From the NCBI GenBank assembly GCA_937922785.1, contig CALAJQ010000043.1:1-37655 (forward strand): a DNA stretch of 37,655 nt, written 5' to 3'. A model generated the notes under the pieces. The model was given only the letters and a program-made list of their open reading frames with translations. It did not search any database and was not told the DNA's origin. Shown here in pieces: positions 1,653 to 12,776 of this stretch (its first letter is position 1; the number at the start of each line of letters is the position of its first letter). Both the position numbers and the translations under genes were made by a program. This DNA comes from an uncultured Acidimicrobiales bacterium (GTDB lineage Bacteria > Actinomycetota > Acidimicrobiia > Acidimicrobiales > SZUA-35).

Positions 1653-1728
1653 AGGGCAGTAGCTCAATTGGTAGAGCACCGGTCTCCAAAACCGAAGGTT
1701 GCGGGTTCAAGTCCCTCCTGCCCTGCCA
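1653..1728 (+). tRNA. trpT: tRNA-Trp (anticodon CCA)
   Basis: A full cloverleaf is visible. The acceptor stem AGGGCAG (1653-1659) pairs with CTGCCCT (1718-1724). G1725 is the discriminator and CCA is encoded at 1726-1728. The anticodon loop CTCCAAA (1684-1690) carries CCA at 1686-1688, which reads UGG. The T arm has GGTTCAAGTCC. The outermost anticodon-stem pair is a C-A mismatch. tRNA-Trp directly before secE is a common actinobacterial arrangement. Confidence 0.97.
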
Positions 1729-1783: not shown

Positions 1784-2086
1784 ATGGCAATGAATCGGGA
1801 GCAAAGGCGTTACCTGCAGAAGCAGGGCCAAATAGACGCCGAGGGCAACCCAACGAGCCTCCCTCGCGAGAATCGGATGCCCGTTAAGGGGGAGAGGGCG
1901 ACCCCCCTTCAGTACATTCGCGAGACCAATACCGAACTTAAGAGAGTTAACTGGCCGACTCGTCCCGAGGTGGTCAAGTACACCCTCGTGGTTCTGGCTG
2001 CGCTGCTGTTCTTCACCGGATTCATCGCTCTCATGGACTTCTTGTTCGGCGAGGGCGTTATCAAGCTTCTAAGGCTGGCCGAATAA
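1784..2086 (+). CDS. secE: Preprotein translocase subunit SecE
   Basis: SecE is the clamp subunit of the SecYEG channel in the cytoplasmic membrane. The protein has 100 residues, with an Arg/Gln-rich N-terminus, the conserved amphipathic stretch [20 protein letters not shown] (about residues 44-63), and one transmembrane helix (about 65-88). The order tRNA-Trp, secE, nusG is the standard one. The gene begins at ATG 1784; an in-frame ATG at 1790 is an alternative. Its TAA stop shares a base with the nusG ATG (TAATG), so the two are translationally coupled. No L33 gene (rpmG) precedes it, unlike in many bacteria. Confidence 0.96.
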
Positions 2087-3219
2087 TGACCTACGTACTC
2101 AAAACAACGCCGGGCGGCGATTACAGCTTCTGCCTAAAGGCGGCCAACGGCCAAGTGATCCTTAACAGCGAGGTCTACACAACAAAGGCTGCTGCTGAGA
2201 ACGGGATTGAGTCGGTCAAGACCAACTCACCCGACGACGCTCGGTACGAGCGTTTGACCTCAAGTGCCGATCAGCCCTATTTCAATTTGAAAGCCGGCAA
2301 CGGTCAGGTCATTGGAACAAGCCAGATGTACTCATCGGTAGACGCAATGGAAAACGGCGTCGAATCTGTGAAAACCAACGGTCCTGATTCACCAACCGAA
2401 GACGAGACCGACGCGACCGGCGTCGAGGTTGACGATGCGCCGCAGACCGCTGCTGAACCTGAGCCCGAAGTAGAGGTTCAAACAATTGCTGCCGAAGCTC
2501 CTGCCGAATCGCCCGAGCCAGAGCCAGAGCCAGAGCCGGCTGAAGATGCCGCTGCCGCAGAGGCAGTAGTTGCCGAAGCTGAGCAAATTGTGGCCGATGC
2601 CGAAGCTGATGTGGTCGTTACTGACGAAGCCGGTGAAACCGTTGACGAGGCTCCGGTAAAGCAGAAGTCTCCTTATGACCGCCCGGGCCGTTGGTTCGTA
2701 CTTCACACCCAAAGTGGTTACGAGAACAAGGTTCGCAAGAACCTCGAAGCTCGAACCTCGTCAATGAACATGGAAGATCGCATCTACGAAGTTGCGATCC
2801 CTATGGAAGATGTTGTCGAGTTCAAGAACGGCAAGAAGGTCGTAGTCCAAAAGAAGGTATTCCCCGGCTACCTCTTGTGTCGCATGCGTCTCGACGATGA
2901 CTCGTGGTTCGTTGTTCGTAACACTCCCGGAGTCACTGGGTTTGTTGGTGCTGGAAACAAGCCGTCGCCGTTGCCTCGTCGCGAGGTAGAGAGCTTCCTC
3001 ACCGAGAAGACAGATGGCGAAGAGCCAGCACGCAAGGGACGTCCTCGCCTGGAGTACGAACAAGGTGAAACTGTTCGAGTCAAGGAAGGCCCGTTTGCGG
3101 ACTTCCAGGGCGAAATCGTTGAGATCAACGAAGACCAACTCAAGCTCAAAGTGCTGGTCAACATCTTCGGCCGAGAAACTCCGGTTGAACTCGAATTCGC
3201 TCAGGTGGGCAAGATCTAA
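2086..3219 (+). CDS. nusG: NusG with an N-terminal YegP-like (two DUF1508) extension and acidic linker
   Basis: NusG binds the RNA polymerase clamp and links transcription to Rho or the ribosome. At 377 residues this one is about twice the usual size. Residues 1-100 hold two tandem DUF1508/YegP-type repeats. Each has the pattern F-L-K-A-x-N-G-Q-V-I, then Y(T/S), then E/M-NG(I/V)ESVKTN. Residues about 101-198 are a low-complexity acidic linker rich in Ala, Glu and Pro. The NGN domain starts near Trp203 ([38 protein letters not shown]). The KOW domain closes the protein ([19 protein letters not shown]). Actinobacterial NusG often has an acidic N-terminus, but I know of no YegP fusion. No internal start with a ribosome binding site separates the parts, and the frame is continuous. 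Confidence 0.95.
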
Positions 3220-3333: not shown

Positions 3334-3759
3334 ATGGCTAAGAAACAAGTACTCGCAGTAGTAAAGATCCAGATTCCGGCTGGCGCTGCATCTCCAGCAC
3401 CACCGGTTGGTACCGCTTTAGGTCCATACGGTCTGTCGATCATGGACTTCTGCAAGGAGTACAACGCACGAACCGAGGCACAGCGGGGAAGCATCATTCC
3501 CGTTGAAATCACCGTTTTTGAAGATCGAACCTTCAGCTTCATCACTAAGACTCCTCCTACATCTGAGCTGATCAAGAAGGCAGCCGGTGTCCAAAAAGGT
3601 GCTTCTGATCCGCTTCGTGACGACGCTGGGTCCATCACCGATGCTCAACTAACTGAGATCGCTGAGATCAAGATGCCTGACCTCAATGCATACGACATTG
3701 ACGCAGCCAAGCGCCAGATTGCTGGCACTGCTCGTCAGATGGGTATCAGCGTCAGCTGA
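3334..3759 (+). CDS. rplK: 50S ribosomal protein L11
   Basis: L11 binds the GTPase-associated region of 23S rRNA and is needed for the stringent response. The protein has the usual 141 residues. The N-terminal domain contains the Pro-rich segment [20 protein letters not shown] and [15 protein letters not shown]. The C-terminal rRNA-binding domain ends with [15 protein letters not shown] at 3334 gives [17 protein letters not shown], the family's normal start. It lies 84 bases before rplA, the standard L11 operon pair. Confidence 0.98.
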
Positions 3760-4548: not shown

Positions 4549-4773
4549 TTTCTCTAGATCGAGAGGGCTCAGTTAGCCTCACGAAACAATCGAATTTTCT
4601 CTGCCCGAGACATCAGGTGCCGGCTAGCCGGATAAATACTCCTGACGAGGCGGTCGCTTAGCTTCTAGGAAGCACCTCCGGTGTGACCTGTGGTGGTGTG
4701 GTCGTCGCAATTCGATGACACAAGTAACACCAAGACAAACACAGGAAAAACAACCAAAACGGAAGGAGGTGCA
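4549..4773 (+). promoter_or_regulatory. rplJ leader, probable L10(L12) autoregulatory region
   Basis: This 225-base untranslated stretch between rplA and rplJ contains several potential stems, including the self-complementary CCGGCTAGCCGG (about 4620-4631) and GAGG/CCTC pairing around 4648-4678. It ends in a very strong ribosome binding site, GGAAGGAGGT (4761-4770), before ATG 4774. L10 leaders that bind the L10-L12 complex are widespread in bacteria. I infer such a role from position and have not matched the kink-turn consensus. Confidence 0.45.
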
Positions 4774-5538
4774 ATGAGCGAACCAAGACCAGAAAAAGTA
4801 GCGATCGTGGACGAAATCCGTGATCGTGTTGGCGCTGCCGAGGCAGTTGTAGTCACCGAGTACCGCGGTCTGACAGTTTCAGAACTAGCCGAGCTTCGGC
4901 TGGCTATGCGTCCATCAGGCGGCAAGTACAAGGTCTACAAGAACACTCTCGCAAAGAGAGCTATCTCCCAAGACCAGCCCGAACTGGCTGAGCTGCTAGT
5001 TGGACCAACTGCGATTGCGTTTATCGAAAACACCCCAGAGGGTGAGACCGGTGACGTTGTCGGAGTAGCCAAGGCACTCAAAGACTTCGCCAAAGCATCA
5101 CCAGAGCTAGTCGTTAAGGGTGGTCTGTTTGAAGGCAACTTCATTGACGCAGACGGCCTGAAAGCACTAGCCGATATTGAACCTCGCGAAGTATTGCTCG
5201 CCAAGTTCGCTGGCCTACTGGCTGCACCAATGCAGCGCATGGCTGGCCTCTTGCAGGCAGTTCCGCGAGACTTTGCTTACGGCCTGAAGGCACTTATCGA
5301 CATCGGAGGAGCGCCAGGCGCACCGGCCGATGCACCAGCAACTGCTGAAGAAGCCGAAGAGGCAACTCCAGCAGCCGAGGACGCTGTGGAGGCCGAAGAG
5401 GCCGAAGAGGCCGCTCCAGCAGCAGAAGAAGCAGTCGAAGAGACTGAACAAGCAGATGCTGCACCCGCAGCTGAGGCACCAGAAACAACCAATGAAGAGA
5501 CCGCCTCAGCTGACGCTGAGCAAAAAGAAGAGAGCTAA
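4774..5538 (+). CDS. rplJ: 50S ribosomal protein L10 with a long acidic C-terminal tail
   Basis: L10 anchors L7/L12 dimers to the ribosomal stalk. Residues 1 to about 178 are an ordinary L10: [18 protein letters not shown], then [12 protein letters not shown], then the C-terminal L12-binding helix [16 protein letters not shown]. After that comes an extra tail of about 76 residues made almost only of Ala, Glu, Pro and Thr (residues 179-254). The usual L10 is near 175 residues. The frame is open upstream to 4690, but ATG 4774 has GGAAGGAGGT three bases before it and gives [15 protein letters not shown], so it is the start. rplL follows after two bases. The tail role is unknown. Confidence 0.97.
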
Positions 5539-5540
5539 GA

Positions 5541-5909
5541 ATGAGCAAAGAAGAAGTACTAGAAGCAATCGCAAGCATGTCAGTTCTGGAGCTCTCTGAG
5601 CTTCTGTCTGAATTCGAAGAGAAGTTCGGCGTAACAGCCGCAGCTCCAGTTGCAGTCGCAGCTGCTGGCGGCGGCGCTGCTGAAGAAGTTGAAGAGAAGA
5701 CTGACTTCGACGTAGTGCTAACCGGTCCTGGTGACAAAAAGATCCAGGTAATCAAGGCTGTTCGTGAGCTAACAGGGCTGGGTCTGAAGGAAGCTAAGGA
5801 CCTAGTTGAGTCTGCTCCTAAGGCTGTTGTCGAAGGCGCAAACAAGGACGACGCTGAAGCAGCGAAGGCCAAGATTGAAGCCGCTGGTGGTTCAGTAGAA
5901 CTTAAGTGA
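5541..5909 (+). CDS. rplL: 50S ribosomal protein L7/L12
   Basis: L7/L12 forms the flexible stalk that recruits translational GTPases. The protein has 122 residues: an N-terminal dimerisation helix pair ([20 protein letters not shown]), an Ala/Gly hinge (residues about 36-50), and the C-terminal factor-binding domain ([20 protein letters not shown], then LVESAPKAV). It starts two bases after the rplJ stop and ends the operon at a strong terminator. Confidence 0.98.
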
Positions 5910-6090: not shown

Positions 6091-7383
6091 GTGGAGGAGA
6101 GCGACATTGACTTGCCGATGCGGCGTGTCTCGGCCCAGAAGGTCCGCGACGACTCTCGCATCGCTCGATCAAATTCGACCACAACCGACTACTGGATTCG
6201 TGGAACCGAGAGTGGCAAGTTTCCGCTCTCGATGCGCGGTTGTTTTTGGCTCGGAAGCTTCGTCGCTGTGCTTCTAATCGCCTTCAGCCTGTTTCAGGTG
6301 GTTCCCAGCGTCGAAAGAAATCTCGAGCAGCGCGCTGTCTCGGAACTAAATGCCGCGGGTATTGAGACAGGAGGTCTCGAGGTGGACTTCTCGTGGCGTG
6401 ACGGCGATATCAGCGGGCTTGTGGCTACCGAGGACTCCGCGGATGTGATTCTCGACACCGTGTCTGGCCTGGACGGGGTCAGGTCGGTTGAGCTGAATCT
6501 CGATGTCGCCGAGACCCCAACAAGCACAACGACTCCAGGCTCGCCTCGGGCGATCGGGCCAGTCAGCGTGATCGTCCAGTTCACCGGCGGAGGCTCCAGC
6601 TTGAGCGGAACGGTTCTGACCGAGCAGCAGCGTTCCGAACTCGTTTCAGCGGCAGAGGCTGCGATGGGTGCAGAAAATGTTTCAGATCGTCTGCAGGTGT
6701 CAGGCTTGTTGCCTGAGCTCGAGGGTGCAGATGAGCGGGTTAAAAGTATGGCTTCAGTGATCGCCAAGATCCAAGCACCCACTTCAGGCCGGATCGTGTT
6801 AGTCGATGGGAGTCTCAGTTCCAGCCTTAGTGTTCCAACTGAAGAGAATGTTGTTCTGTTAGAAGAAGCATTCGCCGAGTCGGGCCTTGTTGGCGAACGC
6901 CAAATTGAGGTCGAAACGGTCAGGGATCTAGACCCCGACCCCGACCCCGACCCCGAACCTGAACCCGACCCAGCCTCGGCTGTGCTCCTACCAGCCGAAC
7001 AAGCTGCGGCGCTACAGGCTGAACTAGATCTACTACAGGCTGAGGTGGCCGCAAATGTCGTGTTTGGAGCTAACCAATCTTCTCTGAGTGCAGAGGCCCA
7101 ACTGACCCTTGATAAAGTTGCCGCCGCGATGAACCAATACTTGCAAACGTCCATCGAGGTCGAAGGCCATACTGATTCAGCTGGCGTTGAGAGTGAGAAT
7201 CGGCAGCTAAGTCAAGAGCGTGCTGATGCTGTTGCGGCCTATCTGATCAGTGCGGGAGTTGAAGCGAGGAGACTGTCAGCGATTGGATATGGCCAAGATA
7301 GGCCAGTTGGTGACAATTCGACCAACGCCGGTCGTCAGGCCAATCGCAGGGTCCAGTTCACTGCGTCGGAGTTAGCTCCATGA
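6091..7383 (+). CDS. Membrane-anchored BON/OmpA-family protein (OmpATb/ArfA-like)
   Basis: This 430-residue protein has a basic cytoplasmic N-terminus, one transmembrane helix (about residues 52-71), BON-like repeats (about 78-280), an Asp-Pro/Glu-Pro repeat linker (about 286-297) and a C-terminal OmpA domain (about 320-425). The OmpA part shows the peptidoglycan-binding pattern: VEGHTDSAG, then NRQLSQERADAV, then IGYGQDRPV and ANRRVQF. The TM-BON-OmpA order matches mycobacterial Rv0899/OmpATb (ArfA). It probably ties the membrane to peptidoglycan. The start is GTG 6091 with GGGGAG upstream; ATG 6118 is an alternative. The stop overlaps the next gene (ATGA). The actual substrate or pore role is unknown. 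Confidence 0.83.
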   Translation: MEESDIDLPMRRVSAQKVRDDSRIARSNSTTTDYWIRGTESGKFPLSMRGCFWLGSFVAVLLIAFSLFQVVPSVERNLEQRAVSELNAAGIETGGLEVDFSWRDGDISGLVATEDSADVILDTVSGLDGVRSVELNLDVAETPTSTTTPGSPRAIGPVSVIVQFTGGGSSLSGTVLTEQQRSELVSAAEAAMGAENVSDRLQVSGLLPELEGADERVKSMASVIAKIQAPTSGRIVLVDGSLSSSLSVPTEENVVLLEEAFAESGLVGERQIEVETVRDLDPDPDPDPEPEPDPASAVLLPAEQAAALQAELDLLQAEVAANVVFGANQSSLSAEAQLTLDKVAAAMNQYLQTSIEVEGHTDSAGVESENRQLSQERADAVAAYLISAGVEARRLSAIGYGQDRPVGDNSTNAGRQANRRVQFTASELAP

Positions 7384-8036
7384 TTTTTGTGATTACTGAC
7401 CTTCTTTTCCCGCTAATTGCAGCGCTTTTGCTTGGTCTTGGCCTTGGTTGGTTGATGTGGCGCTGGAGGCATAGACATGTGACGAGTCTGGAGTGGGACA
7501 CAGTCTTGGCCGAATCGAGCGCCCGGCACGCCAGGATCATGGAGCTCGAAGATCTGATCGAGAGCCAAGAGCGAGAAGTTGTGGCCTTGCCCGCTGAACC
7601 TCCGGAGCCTGTCGGTCAACCGAGCCCGGTAGCCCGGGATCTGCCGGTAGCCAGTGATCTTCCGGTAACGAGTGATCTTCCGGTAACCAGTGATCTTCCG
7701 GCAACCAGTGATCTTCCGGTAACAGAGAATCTGACTGAATCGGCCCAATCCGATCCGGATTCTCCTTCGGCAGATCTTGAACAAGCTCTTGCGGCAGCCC
7801 ACCTGCGAATCGCTCAGCTCGAAGCCCAGCCTCGAGAGCCAGATGACTTGAAGAAGATCAAAGGCGTCGGACCTAAGCTGGAAAAAATCCTTCATGGAGC
7901 TGGAATTCTGGCCTTCTCAGATCTGGCTGACCTCGACCAGGCAGGCGTTGAGGCCTTGCAGGAGCAGCTAGTTCAGTTCCCTGGCCGGGTCGAGCGCGAA
8001 GATTGGGTTGGTCAAGCACGAGCGCTGATGGGCTGA
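7380..8036 (+). CDS. Membrane-anchored protein with a C-terminal helix-hairpin-helix domain
   Basis: The 218-residue protein starts with a transmembrane helix (about residues 4-26). A short coiled-coil-like stretch follows (about 38-66), then five copies of a six-residue repeat DLPV(A/T)S (about 87-116). The C-terminus (about 155-215) reads DLKKIKGVGPKLEKILHGAG, a helix-hairpin-helix of the COG3743/H3TH type found in several membrane and ribosome-linked proteins. Such a domain normally binds nucleic acid without sequence specificity. The ATG overlaps the stop of the OmpA-like gene, and its stop overlaps the next start, so the three genes are coupled. Function unknown; nuclease activity should not be assumed. 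Confidence 0.75.
   Translation: MIFVITDLLFPLIAALLLGLGLGWLMWRWRHRHVTSLEWDTVLAESSARHARIMELEDLIESQEREVVALPAEPPEPVGQPSPVARDLPVASDLPVTSDLPVTSDLPATSDLPVTENLTESAQSDPDSPSADLEQALAAAHLRIAQLEAQPREPDDLKKIKGVGPKLEKILHGAGILAFSDLADLDQAGVEALQEQLVQFPGRVEREDWVGQARALMG
7638..7727 (+). repeat. Five tandem 18-bp repeats inside the helix-hairpin-helix gene
   Basis: The unit is GATCTTCCGGTAACCAGT with small variations, starting at 7638, 7656, 7674, 7692 and 7710. Being a multiple of three, copy-number change would keep the frame and alter only the linker length. Confidence 0.9.
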
Positions 8037-8860
8037 TGGATCTCAAAACAACGTCGTTTAGTGTTGCCTCTTCCGGAGTTGGGACCATCACGCTGTCCAG
8101 GCCAGAACGGCACAACGCTTGGACCGGTCGGATGCACACCGAATATCGATGGCTTCTAGATCAGGCCGAGTCTTCTGAGAAGGTGCGAGCCATCGTGGTG
8201 GCTGGCGATCCCGAAGGGCGAGCGTTTTGTGTCGGGGGAGATTCGGAAGCACTTTCTGGCCATGCCGCAAAAGGGGGCTATGACCCGGGCACTCCCGATC
8301 CGCTGGCGACACCGGGTTTTGGAGTGAGGCCTGAGTTCGATGCAAAGTTCGCACACCAGTTTGGAATGACCAAGCCGATTATTGCTGCGGCAAACGGGGC
8401 GGCTGCTGGTGTTGGATTAGCAGTGGTTTGTTTCGCTGACATTCGCTTTATGGCTACAGACGCCAGCTACACCACAGCCCATGGCCGTATTGGTTTGGCC
8501 GCTGAGTACGGCTTGGCGTGGCTTTTGCCTCGCCTTGTTGGTCTGACCACCGCAACTGAGATTTTGCTCAGCAGTCGCAAGTTCAGGGGCTCTGAAGCCA
8601 AAGCTATTGGGCTTGCCAACGATGCACTGCCAAGAGATGAGGTGGTCGCCCATGCTCAGGAATATGCGGCCAATCTCATAGCTCATAACAGTCGAGCGTC
8701 CCTGCGCGAAACAAAGCGGCTCATCTACACAGACCTCCATAGACCTGTCAACGAGGCGGTCGAAGACTCAGAAAAGCTTCTAAACAAGCTGATGGCCGAT
8801 CCCGACTACGCAGAAGGCATAAAAGCCCTCCACCAAAAACGCCCCCCAAACTTTGCGTAG
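8036..8860 (+). CDS. Enoyl-CoA hydratase/isomerase (crotonase) family protein
   Basis: This protein of 274 residues has the crotonase fold. The oxyanion-hole segments are AFCVGGDSEAL (about residues 64-73) and ANGAAAGVGLA (119-129). IGLAAEYGLAWLLPRLVG (152-169) closes the active site. The two catalytic glutamates of classical enoyl-CoA hydratase are absent: their positions hold Gly127 and about His149. Glu157 lies where PaaG-type isomerases carry their single acid, so an isomerase or other crotonase reaction is likelier than hydration. The ATG at 8036 overlaps the upstream stop (TGATG), which supports it over a longer frame beginning at 8003. The link to its two membrane-protein neighbours is unclear. 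Confidence 0.85.
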   Translation: MDLKTTSFSVASSGVGTITLSRPERHNAWTGRMHTEYRWLLDQAESSEKVRAIVVAGDPEGRAFCVGGDSEALSGHAAKGGYDPGTPDPLATPGFGVRPEFDAKFAHQFGMTKPIIAAANGAAAGVGLAVVCFADIRFMATDASYTTAHGRIGLAAEYGLAWLLPRLVGLTTATEILLSSRKFRGSEAKAIGLANDALPRDEVVAHAQEYAANLIAHNSRASLRETKRLIYTDLHRPVNEAVEDSEKLLNKLMADPDYAEGIKALHQKRPPNFA

Positions 8861-9185: not shown

Positions 9186-12100
9186 TTGCCTGCACGTACC
9201 CTTGCACGCGACCGTTTTTCTTTCGGAAAGCTCGATCAAGCACTCGAGCTGCCCGACCTAATTGCAATCCAGAAAGACTCGTTTGAGTGGTTTCTTGATG
9301 AAGGGCTTGCGAATGCGTTTCGTGACATTAGCCCAATCAAGGATTTCACCGAGACTCTTCAGCTAGAGCTCGAATTTGATCCTCACGACGAGGATCTAAA
9401 GCCTTACCCGAAGTACACGGTTGAGGAATGTAAAGAAAAGGACATGACCTACGCGGCGCCAATCTTTGTGCGGGCCCGCTTCATGAACTCAACAACCGGA
9501 GAAATCAAAGAGCAGACAGTCTTCATGGGCGACTTCCCAATGATGACTGACAAAGGCACTTTTGTTATCAACGGCACTGAGCGAGTTGTTGTATCTCAGC
9601 TCGTCCGATCACCTGGAGTTATCTTCCAGCCGGGTGAGCGTTTCCGTCTTCGTAACCTGGCCAAGCACCAGATGGTTACTGGCACCATTCACCCTTACCG
9701 TGGCGAATGGATTGAGTTCGATGTAGAGCAGAAGCCAGGCAAGCACCCAACCGCTGGTGTTCGTGTTGCTCGTAAGCGTCGTATCTCGGTCTTCACCATG
9801 TTGCGAGCACTCGGTTTCGACGAGGAGAACGCTCCAGGATTCCTCGACGCCTTTGCCGCACACTTTGACTTCCTAGAAGGTCAGTGGGAAAAGGACAAGG
9901 AAATCTCGCCGACTCAGGACGAGAGCCTCATCGAGATTTACAAGCGTGCTCGCCCAGGTGAGCCACCAACCCTTGAAGCTGCCCGCAGCTACCTGCGCAA
10001 CGCGTTCTTCGAGAGCCGCCGCTATGACCTTTCACGTGTTGGTCGCTACAAGCTGAACCGCAAGCTAGGTCCAGAAATTGACCGCATCGAAGAACTCTTT
10101 CCACAACTGGCAGATCTCATAGACAAGCCAGACATTGATCAGCCAGTTCTGTCAAAGGTTGAGGTTCTTGCCTCAGCTACCTATCTCCTCCACTTGATGC
10201 TGGCCGAGCCGGGCTACCGCTTGGATGACCAGGATCACTTCGCGAACCGTCGGGTCCGCTCAGTTGGCGAGCTAATTCAGAACCAGGTTCGAATCGGCCT
10301 TAGCCGGATGGAACGAGTGGTTCGAGAGCGCATGACCACCCAAGACGTCGAGGCGATTACTCCTCAGACTCTTATCAACATCCGTCCAGTCGTGGCTGCA
10401 ATCAAGGAGTTCTTTGGAACTTCTCAGCTGTCTCAGTTCATGGACCAGGTGAACCCGCTTTCGGGTCTGACTCACCGCCGTCGACTTTCCGCACTTGGCC
10501 CTGGTGGCCTAAGCCGAGAGCGTGCAGGTTTTGAGGTTCGAGACGTTCACTTCTCCCACTACGGGCGAATGTGTCCTATCGAGACTCCCGAGGGCCCGAA
10601 CATCGGACTTATTGGATACCTGTCTTCTTATGCCCGGGTTAACGCTTTTGGCTTCTTGGAGACTCCGTATCGCAAGGTGAACAACGGCGTTGTCTCTGAT
10701 GAGATCGTCTTCCTGACAGCAGATGAGGAAGAGGAGTACATCGTTGCTCAGGCCAACTCACAGCTGAATGCAGATGGCAGCTTTACGAACGAGCGAGTTC
10801 TTTCCCGCCGTTCACCACAAGCTGCGTCACTGCGTGACCTTAAGCTCCAGCTGGAGCGAGACATCTTCTTCGGTGCTACCACCGAAATCGCCAACGTTCC
10901 CGGCGTCGAGGTCCAGATGATGGACGTTTCACCTCGCCAGATTGTTTCCATCGGAACAGGTCTTATCCCATTCCTTGAACACGACGACGCAAACCGCGCC
11001 CTCATGGGTGCAAACATGCAGCGTCAGGCTGTGCCGCTTCTAACTCCAGAGGCTCCATACATCGGTACAGGTATTGAGGGTCGTGCGGCCCTAGATGCCG
11101 CCGACACTGTTGTTGCAATTGACGACGGTGTTGTGGTCGATGTCGACGGCCGTCAGATCGTAATGGACTACAAGAATGAGGGCCGCAAAGTCTTCCGTCT
11201 GTTGAAGTTCGATCGTTCCAACCAGGACACCTCAATCAACCAGAAGCCACGAGTTTCTGTTGGTCAGGAAGTCAAGAAGGGCGAGCTTCTTGCTGATGGC
11301 CCTTCTACTGACAACGGTGAGCTAGCTCTTGGTAAAAACCTCGTCGTGGCTTTCATGCCATGGCAGGGCTACAACTTCGAAGATGCGATCATCTTGAGCG
11401 AGCGTCTCGTGCGAGACGATGTGCTTACTTCTATCCACGTTAAGGAGCACGAGATTGATGCTCGTGACACCAAGCTTGGGCCAGAAGAGATTACTCGAGA
11501 CATCCCGAACCTCTCTGAAGAGATCCTTGCTGATCTCGACGAGCGGGGCATCATCCGAGTCGGTGCCGATGTGGGTCCGGGCGACGTCCTGGTTGGCAAG
11601 GTCACACCTAAGGGCGAGACTGAGCTAACTCCAGAAGAGCGCCTCCTTCGTGCCATCTTCGGTGAAAAGGCTCGCGAAGTTCGAGACACCTCTTTGAAGG
11701 TTCCTCACGGCGAAGTCGGCAAGGTTATTGACGTAAAGGTCTTCAACCGAGACGACAGCCACGAACTTCCTCCTGGTGTGAACCAGCTAGTGCGGGTTTA
11801 TGTTGCCCAGAAGCGAAAGATATCAGTTGGCGACAAGCTGGCTGGACGTCACGGAAACAAGGGTGTTATCTCCCGCATTCTTCCAGTCGAGGACATGCCT
11901 CACATGGAAGACGGAACTCCAGTTGACATCATCTTGAACCCACTCGGTGTTCCTTCTCGAATGAACATCGGTCAGGTTCTTGAATCTCACTTGGGCTATG
12001 CAGCTCGATGGGGTTGGCAGGTTGATGGCCAAACAGTTGGTGAACCGCCGCTGCGTAACACCGTCAACAAGACTCGTCCATTCACCACTCCTTCAACCCT

Positions 12101-12776
12101 GGTTTCAACCCCAGTGTTTGATGGTGCGAAGTGGGACGAAAAGCACCTTTCCGGCGACAAGCCAACCATTCAGGAAATCTTCACCAACCTCAACCCTGAG
12201 GCCGAAGACGGAACTCGAATGATCGGACCTGACGGTAAGGCCACCTTGTACAACGGCCAAACCGGCGAGGCATATGACAACCCGATCATGGTTGGCATCA
12301 TGTACGTCTTGAAGCTCAGCCACATGGTTGATGACAAGATCCACGCCCGTTCAACAGGTCCATACTCCATGATTACCCAGCAGCCACTTGGTGGTAAGGC
12401 CCAATTTGGTGGCCAGCGCTTTGGTGAGATGGAAGTTTGGGCGCTTGAGGCTTATGGCGCCGCTTACTGCTTGCAGGAGCTGCTCACCATCAAGTCCGAT
12501 GACGTGCTCGGTCGTGTGAAGGTCTATGAAGCCATTGTTAAGGGCGAGAACATCCCCGAACCAGGCATCCCTGAGAGCTTCAAGGTTCTCATCAAGGAGA
12601 TGCAGGCCTTGTGCCTCAACGTTGAAGTCCTCGCTGAGGACGGCCATGAAATTGAGATGCGCGAGCTCGATGACGAGCTATTCCGCACCGCTGAAGAATT
12701 AGGAATCGATTTGTCCCGTCCAGAACGTGGAACTGACGAAGACGACGCCGCCCGAGCCGCAAGTCGCGGCCGCTGA
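9186..12776 (+). CDS. rpoB: DNA-directed RNA polymerase subunit beta
   Basis: This is the 1196-residue beta subunit, which forms one pincer of RNA polymerase. The rifampicin region runs [18 protein letters not shown], then [14 protein letters not shown], with Asp420, His430 and Ser435 matching E. coli D516, H526 and S531. Val422 replaces N518. Other hallmarks are [30 protein letters not shown] and [13 protein letters not shown]. The start is a TTG at 9186 with AGGTGG six bases upstream; no in-frame ATG or GTG lies nearby. rpoC follows after 16 bases with AAGAGGAG as its ribosome binding site. Confidence 0.99.

Follow-up and report, generated by a model that had tools for sequence, protein, structure and literature searches.

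Here we report the analysis of a gene in which a pair of DUF1508 (YegP) domains stands at the N-terminus of NusG. The DNA that was analysed, hereafter the window, is an entire contig (C43) of 37,655 bases from a 4.9-Mb draft genome of 45 contigs that is 95.7% complete (G000) and belongs to an actinobacterium, very probably of the Acidimicrobiales type. The gene and its surroundings comprise the following features:

1653..1728, plus strand: tRNA-Trp(cca), upstream of secE (ARAGORN)
1784..2086, plus strand: secE (Pfam SecE, E 3.6e-18), whose TAA shares 1 nt with the fusion's ATG
2086..3219, plus strand: yegP-nusG fusion, 377 aa, the sole NusG match in the genome
2116..2250, plus strand: DUF1508 repeat 1 (residues 11-55; 72.4 bits, profile positions 4-48)
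2263..2403, plus strand: DUF1508 repeat 2 (residues 60-106; 74.8 bits, profile positions 2-48)
2395..2667, plus strand: acidic linker (residues 104-194; 33% D+E), with low pLDDT in a poor full-length model
2689..2997, plus strand: NGN domain of NusG (PF02357, 107.5 bits)
3064..3159, plus strand: KOW domain (residues 327-358; PF00467, E 1.3e-07)
3334..3759, plus strand: rplK (ribosomal protein L11; Pfam), downstream of the fusion in the usual synteny

The fusion is a single ORF with an ATG start, in which the DUF1508 pair is followed by a 91-residue acidic linker and then by an NGN-KOW body from Trp203 onwards. In an hmmscan of the protein, PF07411 (DUF1508) matched in two stretches with 140.1 bits (E 2e-41; cut-off 22), PF02357 (NusG) matched residues 202-304 (E 5.2e-30), and PF00467 the KOW domain given above. 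Among the NCBIfam models, the NusG equivalog TIGR00922 scored 212 bits over residues 203-377, against a cut-off of 135.7. The yegP-nusG fusion is thereby confirmed as a real, single coding frame, and chance is ruled out. These matches bear out the initial annotation, which had recognized from the sequence two DUF1508/YegP repeats at the N-terminus, now seen as two tandem copies above the cut-off of the family model, and behind them an acidic linker and a normal NGN-KOW body starting near Trp203. Nearly all bacteria have NusG, and additional folded domains on it are rare. Literature searches found no published description of a fusion of YegP, DUF1508 or UPF0339 to NusG, in agreement with the earlier statement that none was known, and nothing relevant on NusG fusions and N-terminal extensions. 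As far as these searches reach, a NusG with this added known domain is new.

The C-terminal part of the protein has the properties of a housekeeping NusG, namely NGN and KOW domains, an equivalog score above the cut-off, the secE-nusG-rplK gene order, and a single copy, the fusion being the one match to PF02357 in the whole genome. With no other NusG match in the genome, it is the fusion that must act as NusG, barring a second copy in the few per cent absent from the draft. The fusion resembles the NusG paralogues RfaH, LoaP, and UpxY in that all are NGN-containing regulators; it differs from them in scoring under their curated cut-offs (74.9 versus 144.5 bits for the RfaH model, and 78 versus 125 for LoaP) and in being the only NusG of its genome. 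The NusG body is 62-75% identical between the window and 20 relatives, and 120 columns of their joint alignment are invariant, nearly all of them within this body.

NusG proteins of the same family (loci L006-L034) share with the fusion the NGN-KOW body, a start of the type that overlaps secE, and an acidic N-terminal extension; those that were read differ from it in having no YegP ahead of the extension. At the 20 of 29 loci of relatives where extensions were measured, with starts picked by a script, the start is directly followed by an acidic low-complexity extension of 49-125 aa (27-44% D+E), a range of length and acidity that includes the linker in the window. Behind it, the NusG body begins with SPYDRPGRW in the window and the relatives alike. 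The secE gene was located by a motif at 10 of the 29 loci, and at all 10 an in-frame start codon lies no more than 11 nt from the secE stop; in L011, L015, and L016 the nusG start has the same 1-nt overlap with the secE stop as the fusion. The CTAAGG ahead of the fusion ATG also resembles, by eye, a CTGAGG that in L011 and L014 stands at the end of secE. Since the NusG of the relatives already has an acidic extension, the YegP pair is best described as inserted ahead of it, and the 'linker' as old. The initial annotation was right about the acidic stretch, with the correction that NusG proteins of relatives, which have no YegP, contain the same kind of stretch.

The YegP part was examined by structure prediction. 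An AlphaFold2 model of residues 1-110 has a pLDDT of 95.1, and its closest solved structures are those of YegP proteins, 2k8e (Z 18.8, rmsd 1.5) and 2k49 (Z 18.5, rmsd 1.2), both matched over 110 residues. The model also matched a segment of a contractile-injection baseplate chain (7b5h_AD), with Z 8.5 over 99 residues; matches to structures other than YegPs that scored under Z 8, including one RNA polymerase II complex, were not counted as evidence. E. coli YegP (2k8e) and Shewanella SO_3888 (2k49) have the same two-repeat fold as the fused pair, which is 49% identical to an E. coli YegP, and differ in occurring free, with a length of about 110 aa, whereas the fused pair forms the N-terminus of NusG. 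The pair thus has two PF07411 matches above the cut-off and the YegP fold, and it is not a small stand-alone protein; being fused to NusG, it makes a YegP-domain protein rather than a YegP. Of the 21 alignment columns with 90% or more conservation across 34 other YegPs, the pair retains 20 and has V in place of I in the remaining one. These columns look largely structural, and their retention therefore shows folding, not function.

Relatives of the fusion were searched for in 119 genomes including G000 itself, and 110 of these had a match, that is, 109 of the 118 relatives. Two of them (G074 and G107) matched in the YegP part only, which leaves 107 relatives with a NusG match. In none of the 107 is DUF1508 joined to NusG, although in a few of them (for example G012, G030, G041, G047, and G113) the NusG match is partial or is found at, or close to, the end of a contig, and an upstream domain is possible there. 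Conservation of the fusion in the clade, which the initial annotation had raised, is accordingly rejected for this set, in which the genus is represented by one genome. Scanning the genome contigs with the N-terminal part gave six loci, none of them a NusG fusion (one of these, L035, is a contig of G004). DUF1508 was found in 31 of 395 genomes of the class and 27 of 396 of the phylum, which are overlapping sets that both include G000, as well as in 59 of 299 genomes of Pseudomonadota and 6 of 249 of Bacillota; these sets are samples, from which a fusion split by a contig end could escape. Among the matches listed, and G000 aside, all but one of the long DUF1508 frames (at least 200 aa from stop to stop) proved not to be NusG, and in the genome of the remaining frame (G072:C36:90720, 206 aa) NusG is about 23 kb away. 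A tblastn search with the fused protein on phages and plasmids gave no record covering 80% of the query. On viral contigs, a single-sequence search found no relative, and an alignment search found 35 loci, none of them in a frame longer than 199 aa and therefore none fused to NusG. The fusion is lineage-restricted, occurring in one genome among all those sampled. As the sets are samples and the genus is represented by one genome, it may extend wider within its genus; a single occurrence offers no evidence of conservation.

Beside the two repeats in the window, the genome has one stand-alone double DUF1508 gene (G000:C6:7248-7574, L042; 80 and 61.8 bits), located directly downstream of groEL (801 bits, versus 582 for TIGR02348). 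Its product is 47% identical to the fused YegP. Phylogenetic placement was based on a tree of 35 rows, which leaves out 19 of the 35 viral loci and a truncated copy from G061 (L060); a mixed alignment (A1), in which the stand-alone YegP was misplaced, was set aside. The stand-alone YegP and five others from the order form a clade with support of 100/98, and between their repeats all six members have an NC....C motif. The fused YegP has no such motif and lies outside the clade; the tree does not support its derivation from the genome's own YegP, and places it on an end branch of 0.61 with no supported sister. Its best seven matches are YegPs from viral contigs, Acaryochloris, and Nitratireductor (58-67%), and the eighth, from its own family (G004, 58%), comes close to the best outside matches. 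The truncated copy, on contig G061:C125 of another family of the order, is 67% identical to the fused YegP over 54 residues; it ends after the first repeat, and a transposase-like ORF (HTH_Tnp_1, 24.0 bits; cut-off 24.1) comes next in the same frame. YegP genes are also present on plasmids and viral contigs. These sequence comparisons suggest that the fused YegP may have been gained horizontally.

The DUF1508 domain was also found on other proteins. In 8 of the 299 Pseudomonadota genomes (loci L114, L115, L116, L118, L119, L124, L126, and L127, with the start codons of L118 and L119 chosen by eye), it lies near the C-terminus of a tryptophanyl-tRNA synthetase (TrpRS) of 430-456 aa. All eight are tryptophan--tRNA ligases of NF008923 (718-771 bits; cut-off 597), a model whose 431 positions reach the C-terminal part, and the longer TrpRS form is therefore an annotated subfamily. 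In an hmmscan their DUF1508 scored above the cut-off of 22 in six of the eight, with L124 (21.6) and L127 (20.2) just under it. These proteins and the NusG fusion both append DUF1508 to an essential gene-expression protein; in TrpRS it is one divergent C-terminal domain on an enzyme of Pseudomonadota, whereas on NusG it is an N-terminal pair. None of the TrpRS papers listed in a literature search mentions DUF1508. Elsewhere, a DUF1508 pair is joined to an FRG domain (L117:769-1950, minus strand) and a DUF1508 to an HTH and a Peptidase_M78 domain (XRE-M78; L123:1570-3060, plus strand), both of which are stress- or defence-like architectures. Six actinobacterial loci (L051, L052, L053, L057, L059, and L061) combine DUF1508 with a C-terminal tail that by eye is rich in Lys and Ala and resembles histone H1, and in L056 a beta-helix protein bears a weak DUF1508 match (22.8 bits), outside the gene-expression and stress pattern. 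Judged from its fusions to TrpRS, FRG, and XRE-M78, DUF1508 is a recurring accessory module, found several times on gene-expression or stress/defence proteins.

YegP, a widespread protein, is described in several publications. It is called uncharacterised in a study that counts 57 cases of it behind the DNA-damage-responsive capK-capS pair (PMC13373217), in E. coli it forms a hub within the genes that several stresses raise (PMC9501238), and the YegP-like HVO_2922 of Haloferax is induced by perchlorate and listed with recombination and repair genes (PMC12175516). Elsewhere, the YegP-like NMR structure 6Q2Z stands with no function given, a YegP family protein appears at 0.40 in an Acinetobacter trmB study, and the yegP promoter appears in a published list.

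We favour, as the probable explanation, a genuine lineage-restricted fusion in which a working NusG tethers YegP to elongating RNA polymerase. The NGN domain of NusG binds elongating RNA polymerase at the clamp, and the KOW domain contacts Rho or ribosomal protein S10. A complete double-DUF1508 sequence, of a lineage other than the stand-alone YegPs of the order, would have been placed at the nusG translation start, ahead of the acidic extension that NusG already carried. The product would be one protein serving as the NusG of the cell, with its NGN on RNA polymerase and its KOW directed to Rho or S10, and the YegP pair would hang near the elongation complex on a flexible acidic arm of about 90 residues, with neither contact blocked. 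The most likely effect would be a constant tethering of the stress-linked activity of YegP to the transcription elongation complex. That one intact polypeptide is present in the cell, that it has retained the NusG function, and that it acts as a tether, we infer from this arrangement. The initial annotation had suggested that the domain acts on RNA polymerase, nascent RNA, or the ribosome; the TrpRS, FRG, and XRE-M78 fusions lend some weight to such a role, which YegP may have, and conservation lends none, as the fusion is not conserved in the clade.

A serious rival to functional tethering, itself possible but less probable, is that a chance capture put YegP at the nusG start, and that the protein tolerates it there as a near-neutral passenger because the acidic arm insulates it; it would have no role in transcription and may go on working as a soluble YegP does. 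Such an accident would be expected to look much the same, namely as a fusion found in one genome, on an acidic arm that existed beforehand and would insulate an N-terminal insert; the presence of YegP genes on plasmids and viral contigs, which makes them mobile, and of a separate stand-alone YegP already in the genome also agree with it. The intact state of the domain pair, which has no sign of decay, and the recurrence of DUF1508 on other expression and stress proteins speak against a passenger, and neither is decisive.

It is unlikely that the ORF is merely a shared gene for two proteins, in which internal initiation or proteolysis of the linker frees the YegP pair and an ordinary NusG. The linker is long and, from its low model confidence, probably unstructured, which makes it a possible protease target, and GTG codons at residues 169 and 176 might serve as starts. 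From residue 96 to the NGN domain there is no other start codon, there is no ATG between residue 88 and that domain, and by eye neither GTG has a clear Shine-Dalgarno stretch; with these two as sole candidates, internal initiation is unlikely to yield an ordinary NusG. The initial annotation had considered a conserved internal start near residue 195 in the relatives, and none was found; the relatives, which lack YegP, start at the secE-overlapping site with their own acidic extension.

Still less likely is regulation in cis by analogy with RfaH, whose C-terminal domain masks its NGN, such that the YegP pair or the acidic arm would mask an RNA polymerase site until a stress signal arrives. The published stress links of YegP would fit such a switch; against it, NusG models clearly beat those of RfaH and LoaP, and no intramolecular contact between YegP and NusG was seen in the full-length model, whose quality (pLDDT 57) is too low for contacts to be judged. 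A sequencing or assembly artefact that joins a yegP gene to nusG is highly improbable, as the single occurrence in a 45-contig draft is outweighed by the unbroken synteny of tRNA-Trp, secE, fusion, and rplK on both sides, by the two in-frame joins within about 330 bases that a chimera requires, and by the similar GC of the YegP part (0.528) and the NusG body (0.533).

Beyond the tethering of YegP by NusG, we put forward a broader and rather doubtful proposal that DUF1508 acts as a recruitment module of the gene-expression machinery, hard-wired by its fusion to NusG and to the TrpRS of Pseudomonadota, with RNA, tRNA, RNA polymerase, or ribosome partners as possible binding targets under stress. 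If this were true, the YegP-NusG fusion would tell where free YegP works. Together, the NusG and TrpRS fusions give a concrete guess for the site of YegP action, the transcription/translation machinery, whose weight is limited because the NusG fusion was found in one genome.

Three further observations concern the plasmid genes and the rest of the window. The plasmid YegP genes L098, L100, and L104 are found near umuD, a Y-family polymerase, or a DNA ligase together with Lsr2, and a link to DNA damage is possible. Downstream in the window, at 4690-5538, ribosomal protein L10 has a long, Ala/Glu-rich acidic C-terminal tail that resembles the NusG extension. The rplL and rpoB genes are usually adjacent; here, ORFs of the OmpA family, of a helix-hairpin-helix type (a weak match, 24.8 bits against a cut-off of 27), and of the enoyl-CoA-hydratase type at 6091-8860 sit between a likely rplL (5541-5909, identified by eye) and rpoB (9186-12776).
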